A stretch of 64,000 bases of DNA. It comes from Pseudohongiella acticola (lineage in GTDB: Bacteria > Pseudomonadota > Gammaproteobacteria > Pseudomonadales > Pseudohongiellaceae). The DNA lies in assembly GCF_001758195.1 (NCBI RefSeq), contig NZ_MASR01000001.1, forward strand, positions 1,054,001 through 1,118,000. Reading direction: 5' to 3'. The notes beneath the pieces are model-generated. The model saw only the letters and a list, made by a program, of their open reading frames with translations. It was not told the origin of the DNA and did not search any database. Made by a program: the position numbers and the translations under genes. Shown piece after piece: positions 1,477 to 57,843 of this stretch. Position 1 is the first letter of the stretch. Every line of letters starts with the position of its first letter.

Positions 1477-2385
1477 CTATCCGTGCCCATATATCTTGGT
1501 ATCCTGGTGACAGTGATCAGGGTGTTCAAACTCCAGCGTGGAATGCCGTATGTTGAACTCCGCCTCCAGCGCCTTTTTTAGCCGATGTTTGGTCTGCTCA
1601 AACTGATCCCAGGCGCCGGCATCAATGACTACATGAGCGTCTAGCGAGGCTTCATGCTCACCCATTTGCCAGCAATGCACATGATGAACATCAACCACGC
1701 CTTCGATCCTGGTGAGTACCTGAATGACAGCGTCCGTATCAATATTCAAAGGGCTCCCCAACATCAATGTTCTGATACTTCCACCGATTTCTGTCAGGCC
1801 AAGATAAAGAATATAGCTTGCGATGACGATGGTGATGACAGGGTCAACCCAACGCAGGTCGTAGAGCAGGATGAAAACACCGCCAATGATCACGGCGACT
1901 GATGCGAGCGCATCGGACAGATTATGCAGAAACAGCGCACGGATGTTGACGCTGTCTTTCTGCATTGAATAGGTGAGTAAGGCTGTCAGCGCATCCACGG
2001 CCAGAGCAATACCGCCCAGCCAGATGACCCACCAACCTTTGACTTCCGGGGGATCCAGTATCCGCATGCCACCTTCGTATATCAGGTACATCCCGATGAT
2101 AATCAAGGTGGTGTAGTTTATCAGGGCTGCAACTACCTCAATTCGCCCATACCCAAAGGTCATCCTGGCGTCCGCCGGGCGACGCGAAATTTTCCGGGCG
2201 GCAAACGCAATGACCAGCGCTGCCATGTCCGAAAAGTTATGCAAGGCATCGGCAATAAGCGCCAGGCTGCCGGCAAAAATACCGCCCCCGATTTGCGCAA
2301 ACGTCAGAATAGCATTGGCCCAGATGGCGATGGCAACGCGCTTATCCTTCGATTCCGGGGACATATGGTTGTGTTCGTGACTCAT
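1477..2385 (-). CDS. czcD: Cation diffusion facilitator (CzcD/ZitB-like Zn/Co/Cd exporter)
   Basis: A 302-residue inner-membrane antiporter that exports Zn, Cd or Co from cytoplasm to periplasm. It starts with a His-rich tail (MSHEHNHM) and has six predicted membrane segments. The canonical transport-site pairs are visible: HNFSD in TM2 and HNLSD in TM5, the HxxxD/HxxxD zinc arrangement. A cytosolic ferredoxin-like C-terminal domain (VHHVHCWQMGEHEASLDAHV) and a His-containing tail complete the family pattern. It is the last gene of the first czc operon, 63 bp downstream of czcA on the same strand. It would feed the periplasmic pool that CzcCBA then expels. Confidence 0.93.
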   Translation of the reverse strand: MSHEHNHMSPESKDKRVAIAIWANAILTFAQIGGGIFAGSLALIADALHNFSDMAALVIAFAARKISRRPADARMTFGYGRIEVVAALINYTTLIIIGMYLIYEGGMRILDPPEVKGWWVIWLGGIALAVDALTALLTYSMQKDSVNIRALFLHNLSDALASVAVIIGGVFILLYDLRWVDPVITIVIASYILYLGLTEIGGSIRTLMLGSPLNIDTDAVIQVLTRIEGVVDVHHVHCWQMGEHEASLDAHVVIDAGAWDQFEQTKHRLKKALEAEFNIRHSTLEFEHPDHCHQDTKIYGHG

Positions 2386-2448
2386 TGGATCACCCTCGTC
2401 CTAGTCGCTGGAAAATTGCCCCCGGCAAGGTCGCTAGGGGCAAAGCAA

Positions 2449-6581
<4,133 letters not shown>

Positions 6582-39601: not shown

Positions 39602-40151
39602 ATGACAAGCGCATCGCTCAGTGTCTTCACAGTCGCGAAGATGAACTGTCCGTCTGAAGAACGAATTATCCGCCTTTCACTTGCCGGTTTAGCTAGCACG
39701 GAGCTTGAAAATCATCCACGATGGGGAGGTGGGGCCCATATACGCCAAACTGGAGGCCCTTGAAATGGGTCCATAGCTTATCGAAACAAGTGTTGCTGAC
39801 CCAGAAGATCTCGACACAACGGAAGATTCTTCAGACTCTGATGCTCAAGCGGCCAAGAGTCTATATTTGTTGCTCGCAGTAAATGGCTTCATGTTTCTAT
39901 TCGAGATGACCGCGGGTCTGGTGGCTCAGTCCAACGGCCTAATAGCTGATTCTCTGGATACGTTTGCCGATGCAGCTGTATACGGTCTTGCTCTCTATGC
40001 TGTCCGTCGCAGCCTGCGCCTATAGTTGCGCGCTGCGCATCTCGCGGGTTTGCTCCAGCTGCTACTGGCTGTTGGCGTGTTGGTAGAGGTCGTGCGGCGC
40101 TCGGTACATTCTGATGCTCAAAGAATGACCGGTCTCTTTTTCCTACACTGA
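39602..40151 (+). pseudogene. Decayed HMA-CDF cation transporter, copy 2
   Basis: Begins MTSASLSVFTVAKMNCPSEERIIRLSLAGL, matching the HMA domain of the intact copy at 49286 (SVYAVPKMDCPSEERMIRLALNGF). After a deletion and frameshift it reads IIHDGEVGPIYAKLEALEMGP, stop, then SLYLLLAVNGFMFLFEMTAGLVAQSNGLIADSLDTFADAAVYGLALYAV and RSLRL, stop, LRAAHLAGLLQLLLAVGVLVEVVRRSV. At least two stops and one frameshift kill it, and its C-terminus is missing. Unlike copy 1, it keeps the N-terminal metal-binding part. Confidence 0.85.
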
Positions 40152-47945: not shown

Positions 47946-48418
47946 AGCAGGACAACCATAGCATAGATCCAATATCTGAGGCTACCGTGAGATACGCAAG
48001 CGTCGTTGCCCTGGTTGTTCCGCGGTCAGTTTCTGCCGGATAGCCAAGCCAAAGATACCGATGATCTCATCCGCAAATGGCCCATCCGGACGTGCACCCA
48101 AGATCAGATCTGACTCTTCTTCCACCAGCATCTTGAAGCCATAGACTGTCTCTGCAGTCTGGCGAGCCGTAAACCAGTTGGGCGTGAGCTGACTTTTCAC
48201 GTCGAACTTCAGACCTTGGCCGCGTGCTTGAGATTCATTCAGCCCAACCGAGGCGATGGGCGGCGGCGTGAAGCCACGCTCGATACACCCCGCTCGTCAG
48301 GCGATCAATGGTTACCTTCCAACACATTCATAGTGGCAACTTTGGCATCGTGACTGGAGACGGGGCAGCGATGGACCTGCTTGAGCGGCGTCACCCGCCG
48401 CATTGGAAATGCTCTGTA
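47946..48418 (-). pseudogene. C-terminal half of a pyridine-nucleotide-disulfide oxidoreductase (cut by the ISL3-type element)
   Basis: Reading the minus strand: LQSISN, AAGDAAQAGPSL, after a shift PVSSHDAKVATMNVLEGN, then FTPPPIASVGLNESQARGQGLKFDV, TAETVYGFKMLVEEESDLILGA, ADEIIGIFGLAIRQKLTAEQ, and after another shift TTLAYLTVASDIGSML. This is the FAD/NAD and dimerisation end of a glutathione-reductase-like flavoprotein. Several frameshifts and a small deletion make it dead. Its left boundary is the end of the element at 48427, and the missing preceding part is at 50777-50929. Confidence 0.86.
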
Positions 48419-48426
48419 GATATTTA

Positions 48427-48450
48427 GGGTTTACGGATTTAATGGTTGAT
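48427..48450 (+). repeat. Terminal inverted repeat (transposase end) of the ISL3-type element
   Basis: 24 bp reading inward on the plus strand, starting GGGTTTACGG and ending AATGGTTGAT. It pairs with the repeat at 50749-50772 with five mismatches. The outside eight bases are GATATTTA. Confidence 0.85.
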
Positions 48451-48471
48451 GGGGCACCTTCACCCCATCAA
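48446..48471. terminator. Hairpin just inside the element end
   Basis: TTGATGGGG (48446-48454) and CCCCATCAA (48463-48471) make nine perfect pairs around an 8-base loop. It lies directly after the stop of the lspA-transposase frame and may end transcription of the passenger genes. Confidence 0.55.
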
Positions 48472-48484
48472 TCTGATACCACCC

Positions 48485-49282
48485 TCAGATGGTTGATAGA
48501 TCGACCCCGTAGTTGAGCTCCTTTGCGAAGTCCTGCAGTCCGTAACCGATGGTTTTCTTGTAGAAAGGAGAGATCTTCGCAGTCGGTGCCTTTTTCTTGT
48601 GCTTCGTGGTGTAGAGCATTCGTGCCCGCATCACCTCGAAGGAGTATCCGCGCCCTTCACGGTTCTTGTCCTTGGCCAGTCGGTTGATGGACTCCGTGTA
48701 AGCGTTGGTGACGGGCATGTCCGTGTCGAAGTAGGCCGTGAACTCTTCGCGCCAGTTTCCGACTGGCCTGATCAGATCGCTCGAGACTTCCTTTTGGCCC
48801 TTCGGGGTGGTGGCTATCCCCTCGTCCACGGCGGCTTCTGCCTGGAGCCGTGTGGTGGCATCCCAGATGTCGTAGAAGGGGCTCCATTTGTTCATGCTGA
48901 CGATCTCGACCTTTTGTCGGTCTTTCAGCTTCATTGGGTAGCTGGTCAACACGTCCTGGCGGCGGGTGGCCAACAGGTCGAGCAGGGTTCGTTCCTCGCC
49001 TTTTTGACGATTTTCAAGGATCAGCTTGATCAGAAAAATTGAGACCACTACCGCGATTCCGATAAAAAAGTAGCGCTGCCAGCCTCCACCATTCGCAAAA
49101 AGACTGAATGCGGCACCGGTGTTCCATAGGTGCACCCAGTTAAAGAACGGGGTCACCGAAACATACTCGCCATAGGCCATTGATTGCTGCACCAGCCACT
49201 TTACAGCCTGATCAGACGCTGCCAGCAGGCCCGATATGGACAACAGGGCATACGGCGAGAGCTTTTTGCCAATAATGAGCAT
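48485..49282 (-). pseudogene. Chimeric frame: truncated LspA fused to a truncated ISL3 transposase
   Basis: One open frame of 265 codons. Residues 1-96 are the N-terminal two-thirds of signal peptidase II (ASDQAVKWLVQQSMAYGEYVSVTPFFNWVHLWNTGAAFSL to LILENRQKGE). The second catalytic half (the usual GGALGNLxDR and FNxAD regions) is gone. Residues ~97-265 are ISL3 transposase C-terminus (LLDLLATRRQDVLTSY; IVSMNKWSPFYDI; then after an internal deletion NWREEFTAYFD, VTNAYTESINRLAKDKNREGRGYSFEVMRARMLY). Neither part should be active. It starts 3 bp after the transporter stop. Confidence 0.88.
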
Positions 49283-49285
49283 TAT

Positions 49286-50182
49286 TTAACCCTTCAACGC
49301 CAAAATGCGTCTGGCACCGTTAAGTACAATGCCCCCCGCGATGGTGCCGATAATCAGATCCGGATAATTGGAACCGGTCCACGCGACCAGGGCGCCGGCG
49401 GTGATGACCCCCAGGTTGATCACCACGTCGTTGGCCGAGAATATCCAGCTTGCCTTCATGTGCGCCCCGCCTTCCCGATGTTTGGATATGAGCAGCAGAC
49501 AACTGGTATTGGCAATCAATGCGACGAATGCGATAGCCATCATCACCAGCGATTCAGGCTCACTACCGAATACAAAGCGTCTCACCACCTCTACGAGCAC
49601 GCCCACAGCCAAGATCAGTTGCAGTACACCAGCAAGATGCGCGGCACGTACCTGCATTTTCACGCTATGTCCAACCGCATAAAGGGCAAGCCCGTACACC
49701 GCCGCATCGGCAAAATTGTCCAGGGATTCTCCAATCAGGCCGGTGGACTGGGCGATCAGACCGGCAGTCATTTCCACCACGAACAGAAGTGCATTGATGC
49801 CGAGCAACCAGCGCAGGGTCCAGGATTCTTGCTTAGCAGAAGCTGCCGAGAACTCGTCAGCCTTGATGGTCTCCGGATTTGCAGCGACGGTTTCCTGAAG
49901 CGAGGCTCCTAGCCCCAAGGTCTTCAGTTTCGAGGTGACGGGCTCGACTTCGCCGTCATGCACGACCTTCAGCCGGCGGTTCGACAAGTCGAAGGACAGC
50001 GCCCGAACCTCCTCAAAGCCGTTCAGGGCCAGGCGAATCATTCGCTCTTCTGATGGACAGTCCATCTTCGGCACGGCGTAAACGCTGACCCATTTCCCCG
50101 ACGCTTCGGAGGAGGCCTGAATATCAGTATCCGCCGCAGGCGTTACATCGTCGCCACAGGGGCGTCCGCAGTTTTTGCTCAT
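49286..50182 (-). CDS. HMA-CDF fusion cation transporter (intact copy)
   Basis: A 298-residue protein: a Cys-containing leader (MSKNCGRPCGDD), an HMA-like domain (about 30-100, VYAVPKMDCPSEERMIRLALNGFEEV, with a single Cys in MDCxxE), then a six-helix CDF membrane domain. TM2 has GESLDNFADAAVYG (DxxxD, not HxxxD) and TM5 FSANDVVINLG (NDxxxN), unlike the CDF at 1477. This is the CzcD-like passenger type found in ISPpu12 elements. It is divergent from cadR and has the cadR-type promoter at 50216-50246 before it. Two dead copies lie at 8464 and 39602. Metals are probably Cd, Pb or Zn, from the regulator. Confidence 0.9.
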   Translation of the reverse strand: MSKNCGRPCGDDVTPAADTDIQASSEASGKWVSVYAVPKMDCPSEERMIRLALNGFEEVRALSFDLSNRRLKVVHDGEVEPVTSKLKTLGLGASLQETVAANPETIKADEFSAASAKQESWTLRWLLGINALLFVVEMTAGLIAQSTGLIGESLDNFADAAVYGLALYAVGHSVKMQVRAAHLAGVLQLILAVGVLVEVVRRFVFGSEPESLVMMAIAFVALIANTSCLLLISKHREGGAHMKASWIFSANDVVINLGVITAGALVAWTGSNYPDLIIGTIAGGIVLNGARRILALKG

Positions 50183-50215
50183 GATACGACTCCACTTGAC
50201 TGTGATCGGGCAATC

Positions 50216-50246
50216 ATTTAAAACTATATAGTCGCTATAAGGTCAA
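50216..50246 (-). promoter_or_regulatory. CadR-type promoter/operator of the HMA-CDF transporter
   Basis: Minus strand: -35 TTGACC (50241-50246), 19-bp spacer, -10 TTAAAT (50216-50221). An imperfect dyad in the spacer (CTATATAG and related CTATA repeats) is the CadR/PbrR site. Elements, spacing and divergence to cadR are the same as at 933-963. Confidence 0.88.
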
Positions 50247-50277
50247 TAGCGTAGAGAATTCGTTGCGGAGGAACCCG

Positions 50278-50685
50278 ATGCGTATTGGTCAGTTGGCGCA
50301 GTTGGTAGGGGTCGAAACACAGACGATCCGCTTCTATGAACAGCAGGGCTTGTTGTCGCCGCCTGATCGGCAAGACAACCGTTACCGTGTCTATACCGAG
50401 AAGCATGGTGAGGAGCTGGCCTTCATCCGTCGCTGCAGAATCCTGGGCCTGTCACTGGCTGAGATTCACGAACTACAGAGCTATCAGGACGATCCTCATC
50501 AGCCTTGTACCGCCGTCAATGCCTTGCTCGATGATCACATCTCTCGTGTGCGGTCGCAGATAGCCGCTGTGCAAGCGCTTGAGAAACAACTCGTTTCACT
50601 GAGAGCGAGTTGCAACGATAACCGGGAAGTTGAGGCGTGTGGGGTTCTTGCTGGAATTAGCGAAGGAAACATGCACCAGCAGTAG
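50278..50685 (+). CDS. cadR: MerR-family regulator CadR/PbrR
   Basis: From ATG 50278 (GCGGAGG upstream), 135 residues. Winged helix (MRIGQLAQLVGVETQTIRFYEQQGLLSPP), then a dimer helix. Metal cysteines lie in HQPCTAV, RASCNDN and EACGVL, the CadR/PbrR three-Cys arrangement. It binds the divergent promoter at 50216-50246 and responds to Cd, Pb or Zn by family. It differs from the regulator at 998 by many substitutions, so the two loci are old relatives rather than a recent duplication. It is inside the ISL3-type element. Confidence 0.93.
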   Translation: MRIGQLAQLVGVETQTIRFYEQQGLLSPPDRQDNRYRVYTEKHGEELAFIRRCRILGLSLAEIHELQSYQDDPHQPCTAVNALLDDHISRVRSQIAAVQALEKQLVSLRASCNDNREVEACGVLAGISEGNMHQQ

Positions 50686-50748
50686 GTGAGGCATCAACCA
50701 GATAATCCGATGAGATGCCGATTTGTCTCACTCTCATGCAGAGGTAAA

Positions 50749-50772
50749 ATCAACCATTTAATCGGCTTACCC
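50749..50772 (-). repeat. Terminal inverted repeat (regulator end) of the ISL3-type element
   Basis: 24 bp read inward on the minus strand, starting GGGTAAGCCG and ending AATGGTTGAT. It is the partner of 48427-48450. The eight bases outside are GATATTAG. Confidence 0.85.
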
Positions 50773-50776
50773 GATA

Positions 50777-50929
50777 TTAGTTAAGTCTGGGCCGACCGCA
50801 TTCTACAGCAATACCTGCAGCACCAGGTTTGAGAGAGTCGAGAGCTGGGGCTCTGACAGCCTCATGGATGACGCAGTCGGCCTCTAACTCCTGCTTCCCG
50901 CTTCGGCTGTATGTGTGAACCTTGTATCC
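50777..50929 (-). pseudogene. Middle fragment of the interrupted oxidoreductase
   Basis: About 50 codons read [39 protein letters not shown] and end GRPRLN before the element. In glutathione-reductase-like proteins this is the segment before the LNEYLQSVSNPAVYAAGDA region. The C-terminal half continues at 48418 with LQSISN. Its upstream side is fused without a break to P-type ATPase sequence (50930 on), showing an earlier deletion. Confidence 0.8.
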
Positions 50930-51365
50930 GGGATCAGTCCAATTTACAGTGCCCCCGATCAGCCTATCACCCTTGGCTTTTTGCACGGGCATTGGTTCAC
51001 CGTTAACCATCGACTCGTCTACGTGGCTCTCGCCCTCTGCCACGGCTCCATCAACTGGAACTTTCTCGCCTGGCCGACTGCGCAAGCGGTCACCAACCTG
51101 TATGGCTTCTACCGCGATTCCTCTTGCCCTCCTGCGGTCAGGTGATTGGCTGTCTTTGTTGCCAACTCTAACAGTGCCTTGATGGCTCCGCCAGTACGCT
51201 CACGCGCCTTAAGCTCCAGTGTCTGGACCAGCAGCATCAACACAACAATCACTGCGGCCGCTTCAAAATAAACCGGTACTACGCCAACCGACCCGAAGGC
51301 GACGGGGAAAATGCCCCAGGGCCTGTTACCGTATTTCCGGGAGCATGGGACAGGTATGGATCAGG
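50930..51365 (-). pseudogene. Remnant of a copper-type P-type ATPase
   Basis: Minus strand from 51365: [12 protein letters not shown] (an N-terminal heavy-metal-binding box), then a jump to [56 protein letters not shown], a frameshift, and [42 protein letters not shown] to GGTVNWTD. This is the early membrane and actuator region of a CopA-like ATPase, with the TGE loop present as NGE. An internal deletion, a frameshift and loss of the CPC and DKTG parts make it dead. Confidence 0.82.
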
Positions 51366-52326: not shown

Positions 52327-53151
52327 TTAAAATTGATCTGCCAGAAATTTCACGCTCGCATAAATCTCACTGGAACCATCCTTTTTTAGCAGCAAAATAT
52401 CGTAAGGCGTGAATTTACCGCCCGCCTCCATGCCCGGACTGCCCAACGGCATGCCGGGTACTGCCAGTCCAAGCGCCCCGGCTGGTTTCTGCGTCAGGAA
52501 CTGCTCAACATATTTCGCCGGCACATGGCCTTCAAAGACGTAACCTTCTGCTGAGACGGTGGTGTGGCAGGACTGGTGGACGGGCTTGATGCCCAGACTC
52601 GTCTTTTTGGCATTGAGATCCTGCGGATGATGAACTTCGGTGCTGAAGCCATGCTTGTCCATGTGCTCCAACCAGCCCGCGCAACAGCCACAGGATGGAT
52701 TCTTGTAGACCCCGAGCGTATTGACGGGCCCGATCTCAACGACCACCTGCCCCCCTGCTTCCGGGCGAACAGCCATAAATTCAACTTCCGATCCCTCCTG
52801 TAGTTGTGACATGTCCACGTCCTCGGCCACATCGAACGTCATGGTCATCGGCGGCCATTGCCACTGCGCAATGGCCTCATGAGCTAGCGTCACTTTTCGG
52901 TTTTCCTTCTCCATACCGACGACAGTTCCTCGGCCTTTGACCGGCTCCCCGCTCTCGGTGTCATTGTCTGTCATGGGCATCGACATCTCTTGAGGCGCCG
53001 CCTGTGCGAGCATCATTCCGCGGCGAGTCTCCGACGAGAGAGTCTCTTTGTCCGGCATGACCGACAGGTGCGCCTGCGCCTGTAGAGTGCCAGACACAGC
53101 AGAGCCGATACCGAGTAATCCCATGGCCGTAAATAAACAAAGCTTTTTCAT
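52327..53151 (-). CDS. Fusion of a CusF-like domain and a DUF411 domain
   Basis: From ATG 53151 (GGAG 7 bp upstream), 274 residues. A signal peptide (1-25) is followed by a Met-rich spacer. CusF-like domain, about 70-140: GTVVGMEKENRKVTLAHEAIAQWQWPPMTMTFDV, with the His, Trp and two Met that bind Cu(I)/Ag(I). DUF411 domain, about 145-270: VYKNPSCGCCAGWLEHM, SLGIKPVHQSCHTTVSAEGYVFEGHVPAKYVEQFL, GLAVPGMPLGSPGM. CxCC and HxxxxHxP features are present. It sits next to cusA. I know the two domains as separate proteins; the fused order is noteworthy. Confidence 0.87.
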   Translation of the reverse strand: MKKLCLFTAMGLLGIGSAVSGTLQAQAHLSVMPDKETLSSETRRGMMLAQAAPQEMSMPMTDNDTESGEPVKGRGTVVGMEKENRKVTLAHEAIAQWQWPPMTMTFDVAEDVDMSQLQEGSEVEFMAVRPEAGGQVVVEIGPVNTLGVYKNPSCGCCAGWLEHMDKHGFSTEVHHPQDLNAKKTSLGIKPVHQSCHTTVSAEGYVFEGHVPAKYVEQFLTQKPAGALGLAVPGMPLGSPGMEAGGKFTPYDILLLKKDGSSEIYASVKFLADQF

Positions 53152-53212
53152 TTGCATCTCCATTTCAGGTTATCAAACATCAAAAAATAGTCCTGCTTTC
53201 TCTTTCGTCCAT

Positions 53213-56200: not shown

Positions 56201-56347
56201 GATGATAACCTGCACATCGGACAGGTCAGGTAAGGCATCGACCGGCATGGTGCGCAGATTCAAAAGACCGGCAATGGTCAACAGGAGGGCGGCAACCAGC
56301 ACCAGCCCGCGATTGCGCAGGGAAGCGCGAATGACAGCTTCAATCAT
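53213..56347 (-). CDS. cusA: CusA-type copper/silver RND efflux pump
   Basis: A 1044-residue inner-membrane pump. TM4 carries IAIGAMVDGAIVMIENVHKHLEH, the monovalent-metal (HME4) relay, unlike the two CzcA pumps. Met-rich transport sites are seen in EFMPPLDEGDWMYMPTTRPG and METAL-lining Met positions further on. Strong matches are MLSVPGAETVRGYSFFGDSYVYIIFDD and the C-terminus. It starts 4 bp inside the cusB stop. It exports Cu(I) and Ag(I) with CusB and CusC. Confidence 0.95.
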   Translation of the reverse strand: MIEAVIRASLRNRGLVLVAALLLTIAGLLNLRTMPVDALPDLSDVQVIIRTPFAGQAPQVVEDQVTYPLTTAMLSVPGAETVRGYSFFGDSYVYIIFDDDTDPYWARSRVLEYLSQVSSRLPPGVTPALGPDATGVGWVYEYALVDRTNQRDLSQLRAIQDWFLKYELQTVAGVSEVASVGGMVKQYQVIVDPDRLSAYGLTLSAVNQAIRAGNQEVGGSVIEMAETEFMVRATGYIEGLDDLRAVPLKVAQDGTPVLLGDVAQVQTGPQLRRGVADLNGEGEVAGGIIVMRSGENAQATIAAVKQRLAELQGSLPDGVEVVPTYDRSELIGRSVDNLYTKLLEEFAVVAFICALFLFHLRSSLVAIATLPLGILAALLIMRGQDLNANIMSLGGIAIAIGAMVDGAIVMIENVHKHLEHDPEKAKTDRWGVIAKASAEVGPALFFSLLIITFSFLPVFTLEAQEGRLFAPLAFTKTYAMAAAAILSITVVPVLMGYLIRGKIMPENRNPVNRLLSWIYRPVIRLVMRAPWVMVAAGILVMTSAIWPLSRLGSEFMPPLDEGDWMYMPTTRPGLSIGEATQLLQQTDRLIKSVPEVAQVFGKIGRADTATDPAPLSMIETIIRFKPESEWREGMTIESIREEIQRTVDLPGVTNAWVMPIKTRIDMLATGIKTPVGIKIGGPDLPVIQSVGADIEALLPQVQGTASVFAERVAGGRYVTVDIDRAAAARHGLNINDVQAVISSAIGGMNVSETIEGLERFPINVRYPQEVRGSIDTIRDLPVLTSEGERIRLGDVAQIEIEDGPPMIKSENSRPTGWVYVDIAERDIGSYVQAAQQHLAENLELPAGYSLTWSGQYEYMERAKERLTLVVPLTLLIIAFLLYLAFRRLGEVLIIMATLPMAIAGSSWLLWWLAFDLSVAVAVGFIALAGVAVEIGVIMLIYLNQYRARYLEQAQENGGASVDGLREAIAAGALQRLRPIVMTVAAITAGLLPIMQGHGTGGEIMKRIAAPMVGGMISTLVLTLLVLPAVYFLWQKWLLRAQLHK

Positions 56348-57843
56348 TGCGTGTCCCCCTGTGTTGGCATCCCAGCGCGGCGCAGCTCAGTGATACTGTA
56401 GCCGCCATCAGGCATCGGCATGAAATCGAATTCGATGTCATCGCCTTCTGCGAAGCTCGACAGGTCAACGGTTGGCATGATTTGGAACCCCATGGTCATT
56501 GGCGGCCAATTGAGGGCGGGTATGGGACCGTGGCTTAGCGTCACTCCATTGTCGTTGATGCTCTGAATAGTGCCGATCCCGGTCAAGGTCTCCGGTGCTG
56601 TTTCAGTGTTTTCATCCTGACTATCGGACTGTTCAGGGTCAGATACAACCGCATTAAGTCGCGCCATGGCCTGTTCGCCGTTCGCTTCAGAGTCCAGCAA
56701 AAACTGACCCGAAGTGACGATCTCCGTGCCATCGCTCAGTCCGGCCAGAATTTCAATCCGATCGCCGCTGACAACACCGGTGCGAACCGGCTGCACATTA
56801 AAGCGACCATTGCCCGCCGCAGTCAATACACGGGCACCCTGGCCGGACCGAATGACGGCTTCCCTTGGCACACTGATAATATCCGGACGTGGCGGCCCTT
56901 CGACCCGGACGCTGGCAAACATGTTGGGTTTCAGCCTGTGCCCGGGATTGTCAAGTGCCAATCGCAAACGCAGACTTCGGGTGACGGGGTCAAGTTCGGG
57001 ATAGACAAGTGCCACCTGGCCCTGCCACGTTTCGCCAGGGAAGGCCGGAAATTCGGCAGTGACCGGCAGCCCCAATTCCATCCAGGGCATCGTGGTTGCC
57101 GGTACCTCAACATCTATCCATATCTGGTTGAGTGAGGCCAACGTCAAGATGTTATTGGTGGGCGTCACGTAACTGCCTTCACGCGCACCAATGCCTGACA
57201 CCACTGCGTCTGATGCAGCGCGATAAGCAAGCCGGGCACTGACTTCATTATTGCTGGCGAGCTCTGCCACTTGCTCCTGTGTCACCCCAAGTGCAAGCAG
57301 CCGCTCCTCGGCCGCTCTGCGCAGAGACGAATTTCCGGCTGCATTCAGGTATTCGCGCTGAGCGCTGACCAGTCGTGGTGCAAAAAGCTCATACAGGATT
57401 TGGCCCGCTTCGACACGATCACCGACGCTAGCAACATTGAACTGCTCCAGCCATCCTTCGGCCCGGGGATGCAGCATCTGGATAGTTGATTGGTCCCACG
57501 CGGTATAACCAACTGCGTCAACTTGCTGTTGGAATTCACCCGATGTTGCCATCCCCAGACGCACGCCCAGATTCTGCTGCACAGTAGGGGAGATGGAGAC
57601 ATCGGCGCCATCGTCACCTCCCTCATAGACCGGCACCAGGTCCATACCCATGGGAGAGAGACCGGGCTCATCCCGTCTATAATCAGGATCCATCGGGGCT
57701 ACCCAATACAGAGGTTGTCTTGATGCCGAAGTTGTCTGTGATTCAGTCATGCCGTCTTGTTCAGGCATCAAAAAAATATAGATGGCCAAGCTTGCCAGCA
57801 CTGCTGCAACAACCCCGCCAACAAGCATGTTTCGTTGACTCAT
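56344..57843 (-). CDS. cusB: CusB-type adaptor with a C-terminal CusF-like domain
   Basis: A 499-residue periplasmic adaptor. N-terminal anchor (residues 8-27). A heavy-metal-binding segment, YWVAPMDPDYRRDEPGLSPMGMDLVPVYE, precedes the adaptor body (about 80-400, MLHPRAEGWLEQFNVASVGDRVEAGQILYELFAP, with barrel-sandwich and beta-barrel). The last ~75 residues are CusF-like: GTIQSINDNGVTLSHGPIPALNWPPMTMGFQI, with the W and two Met. The gene overlaps cusA by 4 bp. Two CusF domains (here and at 52327) thus serve one pump. Confidence 0.94.
   Translation of the reverse strand: MSQRNMLVGGVVAAVLASLAIYIFLMPEQDGMTESQTTSASRQPLYWVAPMDPDYRRDEPGLSPMGMDLVPVYEGGDDGADVSISPTVQQNLGVRLGMATSGEFQQQVDAVGYTAWDQSTIQMLHPRAEGWLEQFNVASVGDRVEAGQILYELFAPRLVSAQREYLNAAGNSSLRRAAEERLLALGVTQEQVAELASNNEVSARLAYRAASDAVVSGIGAREGSYVTPTNNILTLASLNQIWIDVEVPATTMPWMELGLPVTAEFPAFPGETWQGQVALVYPELDPVTRSLRLRLALDNPGHRLKPNMFASVRVEGPPRPDIISVPREAVIRSGQGARVLTAAGNGRFNVQPVRTGVVSGDRIEILAGLSDGTEIVTSGQFLLDSEANGEQAMARLNAVVSDPEQSDSQDENTETAPETLTGIGTIQSINDNGVTLSHGPIPALNWPPMTMGFQIMPTVDLSSFAEGDDIEFDFMPMPDGGYSITELRRAGMPTQGDTQ

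Follow-up and report, generated by a model that had tools for sequence, protein, structure and literature searches.

A decayed copy of ISPpu12 within the remnant of an oxidoreductase gene in Pseudohongiella acticola

What becomes of an insertion sequence that carries its own metal-resistance genes, and can the gene that it interrupted still be read? The question is raised by a locus in a 64,000-nucleotide stretch of the genome of the marine bacterium Pseudohongiella acticola (contig NZ_MASR01000001.1, positions 1,054,001 to 1,118,000 of the forward strand), called the window here. The original prediction, made from the DNA letters, held that an ISPpu12-like element with cadR, HMA-CDF, lspA and transposase genes had inserted into an oxidoreductase gene that could be put together again from its flanks, and that the element had then lost transposase activity.

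Identity and remains of the element

The element is ISPpu12, a member of the ISL3 family, by its sequence, its ends and its passengers: as predicted, sequence, ends and gene order match those of the copy on the TOL plasmid pWW0 (NC_003350). Its parts, and the short target copies that flank it, are as follows.

48427-50772, no strand assigned: ISPpu12 relict, 2346 bp, delimited by blastn to the pWW0 element
48419-48426, no strand assigned: left 8-bp target copy, GATATTTA, read from the sequence (6/8 against the right copy)
48427-48450, plus strand: left terminal inverted repeat, 24 bp, from alignment to the pWW0, L014 and L015 copies
48485-49282, minus strand: in-frame LspA::TnpA chimera, 265 aa, with LspA residues 1-96 and TnpA residues about 172-211 and 300-429
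48877-48893, no strand assigned: zone of deletion 1, inside tnpA, where the two flanking alignments overlap
48996-48997, no strand assigned: junction of deletion 2, tnpA to lspA, from alignment to the pWW0 element
49286-50182, minus strand: HMA-CDF cation transporter (CzcD-like), 298 aa, open and full length, 96% identical to the pWW0 protein
50278-50685, plus strand: MerR-family regulator cadR/TnpR, 135 aa, open end to end, 92% identical to the pWW0 protein (NCBIfam TIGR02047, 197.7 bits, cut-off 151.45)
50749-50772, minus strand: right terminal inverted repeat, 24 bp, from alignment to pWW0
50773-50780, no strand assigned: right 8-bp target copy, GATATTAG, read from the sequence (6/8 against the left copy)

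The pWW0 copy measures 3372 bp and, like that of the window, has the order tnpA-lspA-CDF, a divergent cadR/tnpR and 24-bp ends. Three of its blocks align with the window copy by blastn: positions 1-466 (94.2% identity), 718-838 (90.1%) and 1596-3372 (95.2% over 1778 aligned bases). The passengers (lspA, HMA-CDF transporter, MerR-type regulator) stand in the ISPpu12 order at 90-95% DNA identity in the aligned blocks, with lspA cut to 96 of 170 residues. The window copy differs visibly from pWW0 in the cadR-CDF intergenic region and lacks a net 1026 bp, through two internal deletions that cost lspA its C-terminal part and tnpA most of its length. Plasmid copies from Vibrio rumoiensis (L014) and Methylophaga thalassica (L015) have the same passengers and ends but, unlike that of the window, keep the full 3372 bp, at 99.3-99.5% identity to pWW0. 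In all, 470 of 72,556 plasmid records match 48419-50780 by megablast, 199 with one place covering at least 80% of it; the 30 matches listed have genes for an ISPpu12-family transposase, for lspA or signal peptidase II, for a cation transporter and for cadR.

Aligning the ends to ISPpu12, a check suggested alongside the original prediction, matched both of them to the ends of pWW0. The left repeat departs from the pWW0, L014 and L015 copies by a single change (A to T at position 5). The two window repeats, about 24 bp long and starting with GGG, pair at the predicted 19/24, against 21/24 in pWW0 (a value also tabulated in PMC3056050), and none of 200,000 random 24-mer pairs from the region reaches at least 19/24. 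The 8-bp flanks, the degenerate repeat of the prediction, agree at 6/8; two 8-mers drawn at random from the region do so with a frequency of 0.0052. At L014 the duplication is exact (8/8, AATATTTC); at the pWW0 and L015 copies there is no 8-bp duplication.

Of the four genes placed between the ends by the original prediction, cadR and HMA-CDF are open and full length, and lspA and the transposase gene survive as one in-frame remnant. Its LspA part is 99% identical to pWW0 and its last 130 TnpA residues 89%. Missing are the GNLIDR and FNLAD stretches of LspA, which we take to hold the catalytic aspartates, and TnpA residues 1-171 and 212-299, presumably the DNA-binding end and two of the three catalytic acidic residues. 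Because it lacks the LspA stretches and the first 171 TnpA residues, the chimera should be inactive as either protein, and the loss of TnpA 1-171 and 212-299 should leave the window copy unable to transpose itself. The transposase gene tnpA is thus broken by the two deletions, and the predicted loss of transposase activity is probable. The remnant covers PF01610 over positions 155-240 of 240 only and scores 55.7 bits with NCBIfam NF033550, against a cut-off of 180; as a full ISL3-type DDE transposase gene is absent, the element is filed as an ISPpu12-derived relict and not as an autonomous member of the family.

The interrupted gene and its surroundings

The flanks of the element hold the following remnants.

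47959-48425, minus strand: 3' piece of the oxidoreductase remnant, aligned by tblastn to homologue residues 288-426 and 433-448 and interrupted by stops and gaps
50780-50938, minus strand: 5' piece of the oxidoreductase remnant, aligned by tblastn to residues 235-287 of the intact homologue
50943-51273, minus strand: P-type (copper-type) ATPase remnant adjoining the 5' piece, from DNA matches to plasmid P-type ATPase genes

The intact reference is a 448-aa NAD(P)/FAD oxidoreductase of Halomonas sp. KO116 (WP_035557901), found via the left flank and continuous across the insertion point. The right flank ends at its residue 287 and the left flank starts at 288; thus, the element sits between consecutive residues, and insertion into an oxidoreductase gene, together with the uninterrupted homologue that was to be sought for it, is borne out. 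Closing the gap around the left target copy yields RPRLN-K-YLQSISN, and around the right one RPRLN-stop-YLQSISN; at this point the homologue reads LSLN/EHLQSTSN, the slash marking the insertion. The predicted joined sequence, RLN-(E)YLQSISN, is therefore right in RLN and YLQSISN and wrong in E, in place of which K or a stop is found. The idea that the host gene can be reconstructed did not survive: residues 1-234 of 448 are missing, with the ATPase remnant where they would be, and stops and gaps interrupt the 3' piece, so the joined flanks yield only a fragment. Pfam matches are Pyr_redox_dim in an ORF at 47982-48200, within the 3' piece, and, for the ATPase remnant, E1-E2_ATPase in an ORF at 50777-51085. 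The oxidoreductase gene may have been whole, or may already have been a remnant, when ISPpu12 arrived.

Other genes of the window, all on the minus strand, deserve a record of their own. A second, diverged HMA-CDF fragment (39618-40101) is 71% and 79% identical to two pieces of ISPpu12 and is perhaps an older relict of a similar passenger. Next to it, an ORF at 40159-41025 matches the CYP152 fatty-acid peroxygenase model at positions 129-415 of 416 only (385.7 bits, cut-off 600) and is a probable N-terminally truncated P450. Farther right lie a single 278-aa protein with a CusF domain and a DUF411 domain (52327-53163) and a CusB-like adaptor whose C-terminal residues 398-475 give a CusF-like match (56344-57843).

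The insertion in sister genomes

Is the insertion peculiar to this genome? A search of 56 genomes with the region gave a match in nine, the own genome included. In six of the other eight the match has 65-74% identity and is confined to the CDF gene (with 27 bases of the cadR start in G013); the remaining two, G011 and G012, both Pseudohongiella, carry the island. G012 contig C2 is NZ_LWHM01000010.1 of Pseudohongiella nitratireducens SCS-49 (record L040, 100% over 7001 bases). The right side of the island is 97-98% identical to the window (9.0 kb of G012 C2 at 97%, 7.4 kb of G011 C117 at 98%) and the left side 94% (7.2 kb of G012 C27, 8.2 kb of G011 C119), against recA identities to the window genome of 86% for G011 and 82% for G012. 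On these figures, the island probably moved between Pseudohongiella species with the insertion already inside it.

Both sisters share the right junction of the window to the base, and with it a right-repeat variant found in G011 C117 and G012 C2 and absent from pWW0 and G012 C26. Their left sides (G011 C119, G012 C27) are built differently: ISPpu12 position 619 directly adjoins window position 48270, so that the element has lost its left end, together with 156 bp of flank, and the interior is not removed as it is in the window. The losses are complementary, since G012 keeps ISPpu12 839-1595 and the window keeps 1-466; with the insertion shared and the deletions different, the ancestral copy must have been longer. 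The sister contigs break inside the element, and the left and right halves are therefore only presumably parts of one element. In G012, lspA matches in shifted frames (C2, C26 and C27, the three stretches read over lspA) and tnpA carries a stop. Could ISPpu12 instead have inserted separately at the same site in each species? The several copies in G012 allow for more than one insertion, but the identical junction base, a right-repeat variant missing from the other G012 right end read (C26) and 94-98% identity of the flanking island make this scarcely credible, and a single shared insertion is the reading followed here.

Additional copies in P. nitratireducens are an observation in their own right. 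Contig C22 (L046), 6.3 kb long, starts (1-766) and ends (5508-6273) within ISPpu12, with the left termini facing its interior; with both contig ends inside the element, further copies must lie in this genome. The same 8 bases, AAAATTTT, flank the right end in C26 and one left end in C22, which are probably the two sides of one copy.

An island without the element, which would have told against the original prediction, did not turn up: both related islands (G011 and G012) carry the insertion. Among plasmids, the right flank matches 65 records, all at 60-80% identity and none covering 80% of the query, and the 20 listed are P-type ATPase genes; the left flank matches five, with at most 54% of the query covered and no uninterrupted island. 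Among 293 genomes drawn from the order, the left flank matches three, own genome included, again with no uninterrupted island; the right flank matches 28, own genome included, and the whole query is matched only in the own genome and G012. G011 has the island yet gives no match in this sample, and was thus probably not drawn. A 24-base right-flank pattern finds one record in genome_contigs, with the insertion present. Nor does the window's deletion junction recur: it has no exact match in genome_contigs or viral_contigs, and a 251-bp query across it is covered to at least 80% in none of 230 matching plasmid records, in collections from which the own genome may be left out.

Probable history, decay and likely present role

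The history that these observations suggest runs as follows. A full or longer ISPpu12 inserted, with a probable 8-bp duplication, into an oxidoreductase gene or its remainder, within a copper/metal-resistance island ancestral to those of the window and its sisters, as the ends show together with the flanks and the right junction common to all three. The island would then have been transferred between Pseudohongiella species, as its identity well above that of recA implies. In the lineage of the window, two internal deletions truncated lspA at its C-terminal side and took out most of tnpA, and the resulting copy is predicted to be immobile; in the sister lineage, another deletion took the element's left end and 156 bp of the adjoining flank. 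What remains is likely a stationary, metal-responsive CadR/TnpR-CDF efflux unit, a role suggested by the regulator and transporter, both of which have kept their open frames in the window and in G012 C2. We hold this history to be very probable; the imperfect 8-bp duplication (6/8) and the sister contigs that break inside the element count against it.

Is the efflux unit kept because it works? In PMC4447125, no Cd, Co or Zn resistance is reported in any transconjugant tested for the CZC module of ISPpu12a, which counts against the transporter function assumed for the relict. The relict may also be under no selection, with cadR and the CDF gene open merely because too little time has elapsed. 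The low divergence from pWW0 favors this, as do the inactive module in that source and the missing statistical separation of the genes by dN/dS, the ratio of nonsynonymous to synonymous change. Measured to pWW0, the ratio is 0.25 for CDF, 0.31 for cadR and 0.73 for the tnpA remnant, values that speak for the history given above; two points count against that history, a contrast between tnpA and the CDF and cadR genes that is not significant (Fisher p = 0.07) and an lspA remnant that, at 0.10 (one nonsynonymous and three synonymous changes), gives no sign of relaxation. Against an absence of selection stand the broken lspA and tnpA beside an open regulator and transporter in the window, and the same pattern at two other loci. 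One is G012 C33, in which the transporter (88% protein identity) and regulator (82%) are open, the lspA piece is decayed, TnpA has no tblastn match within the 9.0 kb read and the tnpA end of ISPpu12 is matched, at 75%, by a stretch of 102 bases; the other is L049, where LspA ends at residue 69. Absence of selection is thus a reading that we take seriously, if one that we judge somewhat doubtful.

A wider survey gives a mixed picture. With the CDF gene as query (E up to 1e-100), 369 genomes of the class yielded five genomes, own included, with five places besides that of the window. The regulator is full length at four of these (L049, L050, L051, L053) and has no match at L052, a locus that begins close to a contig end; LspA is full length at two (L050, L052) and reaches 165 of 170 residues at L051; TnpA runs unbroken up to the limit of the locus at two (L050, L052). 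CDF is full length at three and cut at L052 and L053, which speaks for the absence of selection; because CDF was the query, the survey cannot test its retention. In plasmids, at least 80% of the cadR-CDF stretch is covered in 239 of 284 matching records; among the 40 listed, some keep the regulator side only or the CDF side only, which argues against a strict rule of retention. As a separate observation, the class genome G523 (contig C30) holds two ISPpu12 copies about 8 kb apart (L051, L053); the lspA/tnpA part is broken in both, at different places, and in L053 the CDF gene is also cut.

The evidence leans towards loss of mobility with a retained regulator-pump pair; it comes from few loci, and at two of them the pump is itself cut. 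A stronger version would have ISPpu12 decay in one direction, with lspA and tnpA lost first and the regulator and CDF pump persisting. The element would then seed immobile metal-efflux units, and the regulator of such a unit could still act in trans on any live ISPpu12 that shares its cell. TnpR regulates transposition according to the title of a paper cited in PMC4133298. We nevertheless consider one-directional decay unlikely, the more so because the CDF gene is cut at two of the five other surveyed places. It is highly improbable that the 265-aa LspA::TnpA chimera functions as a new membrane protein: the frame did stay open through both deletions, from the start of lspA to the stop of tnpA, but GNLIDR, FNLAD and TnpA 1-171 and 212-299 are missing, the junction was absent elsewhere in the genome, plasmid and viral contig searches, and dN/dS is higher in the tnpA part than in any of the other three stretches.

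The window copy is a well-supported, decayed example of a known element with a cadmium/zinc-type pump, in a context of a known kind; since ISPpu12 and its passengers have already been described, the gain is modest. The locus is nonetheless a clear case of a cargo-carrying insertion sequence that is dying: one insertion in three genomes with two different deletions, which shows that the insertion is ancestral and shared although no empty site is at hand. It also gives a hint, from counts that are small and mixed, that lspA, the odd passenger of ISPpu12, is expendable and that the regulator-pump pair tends to persist.
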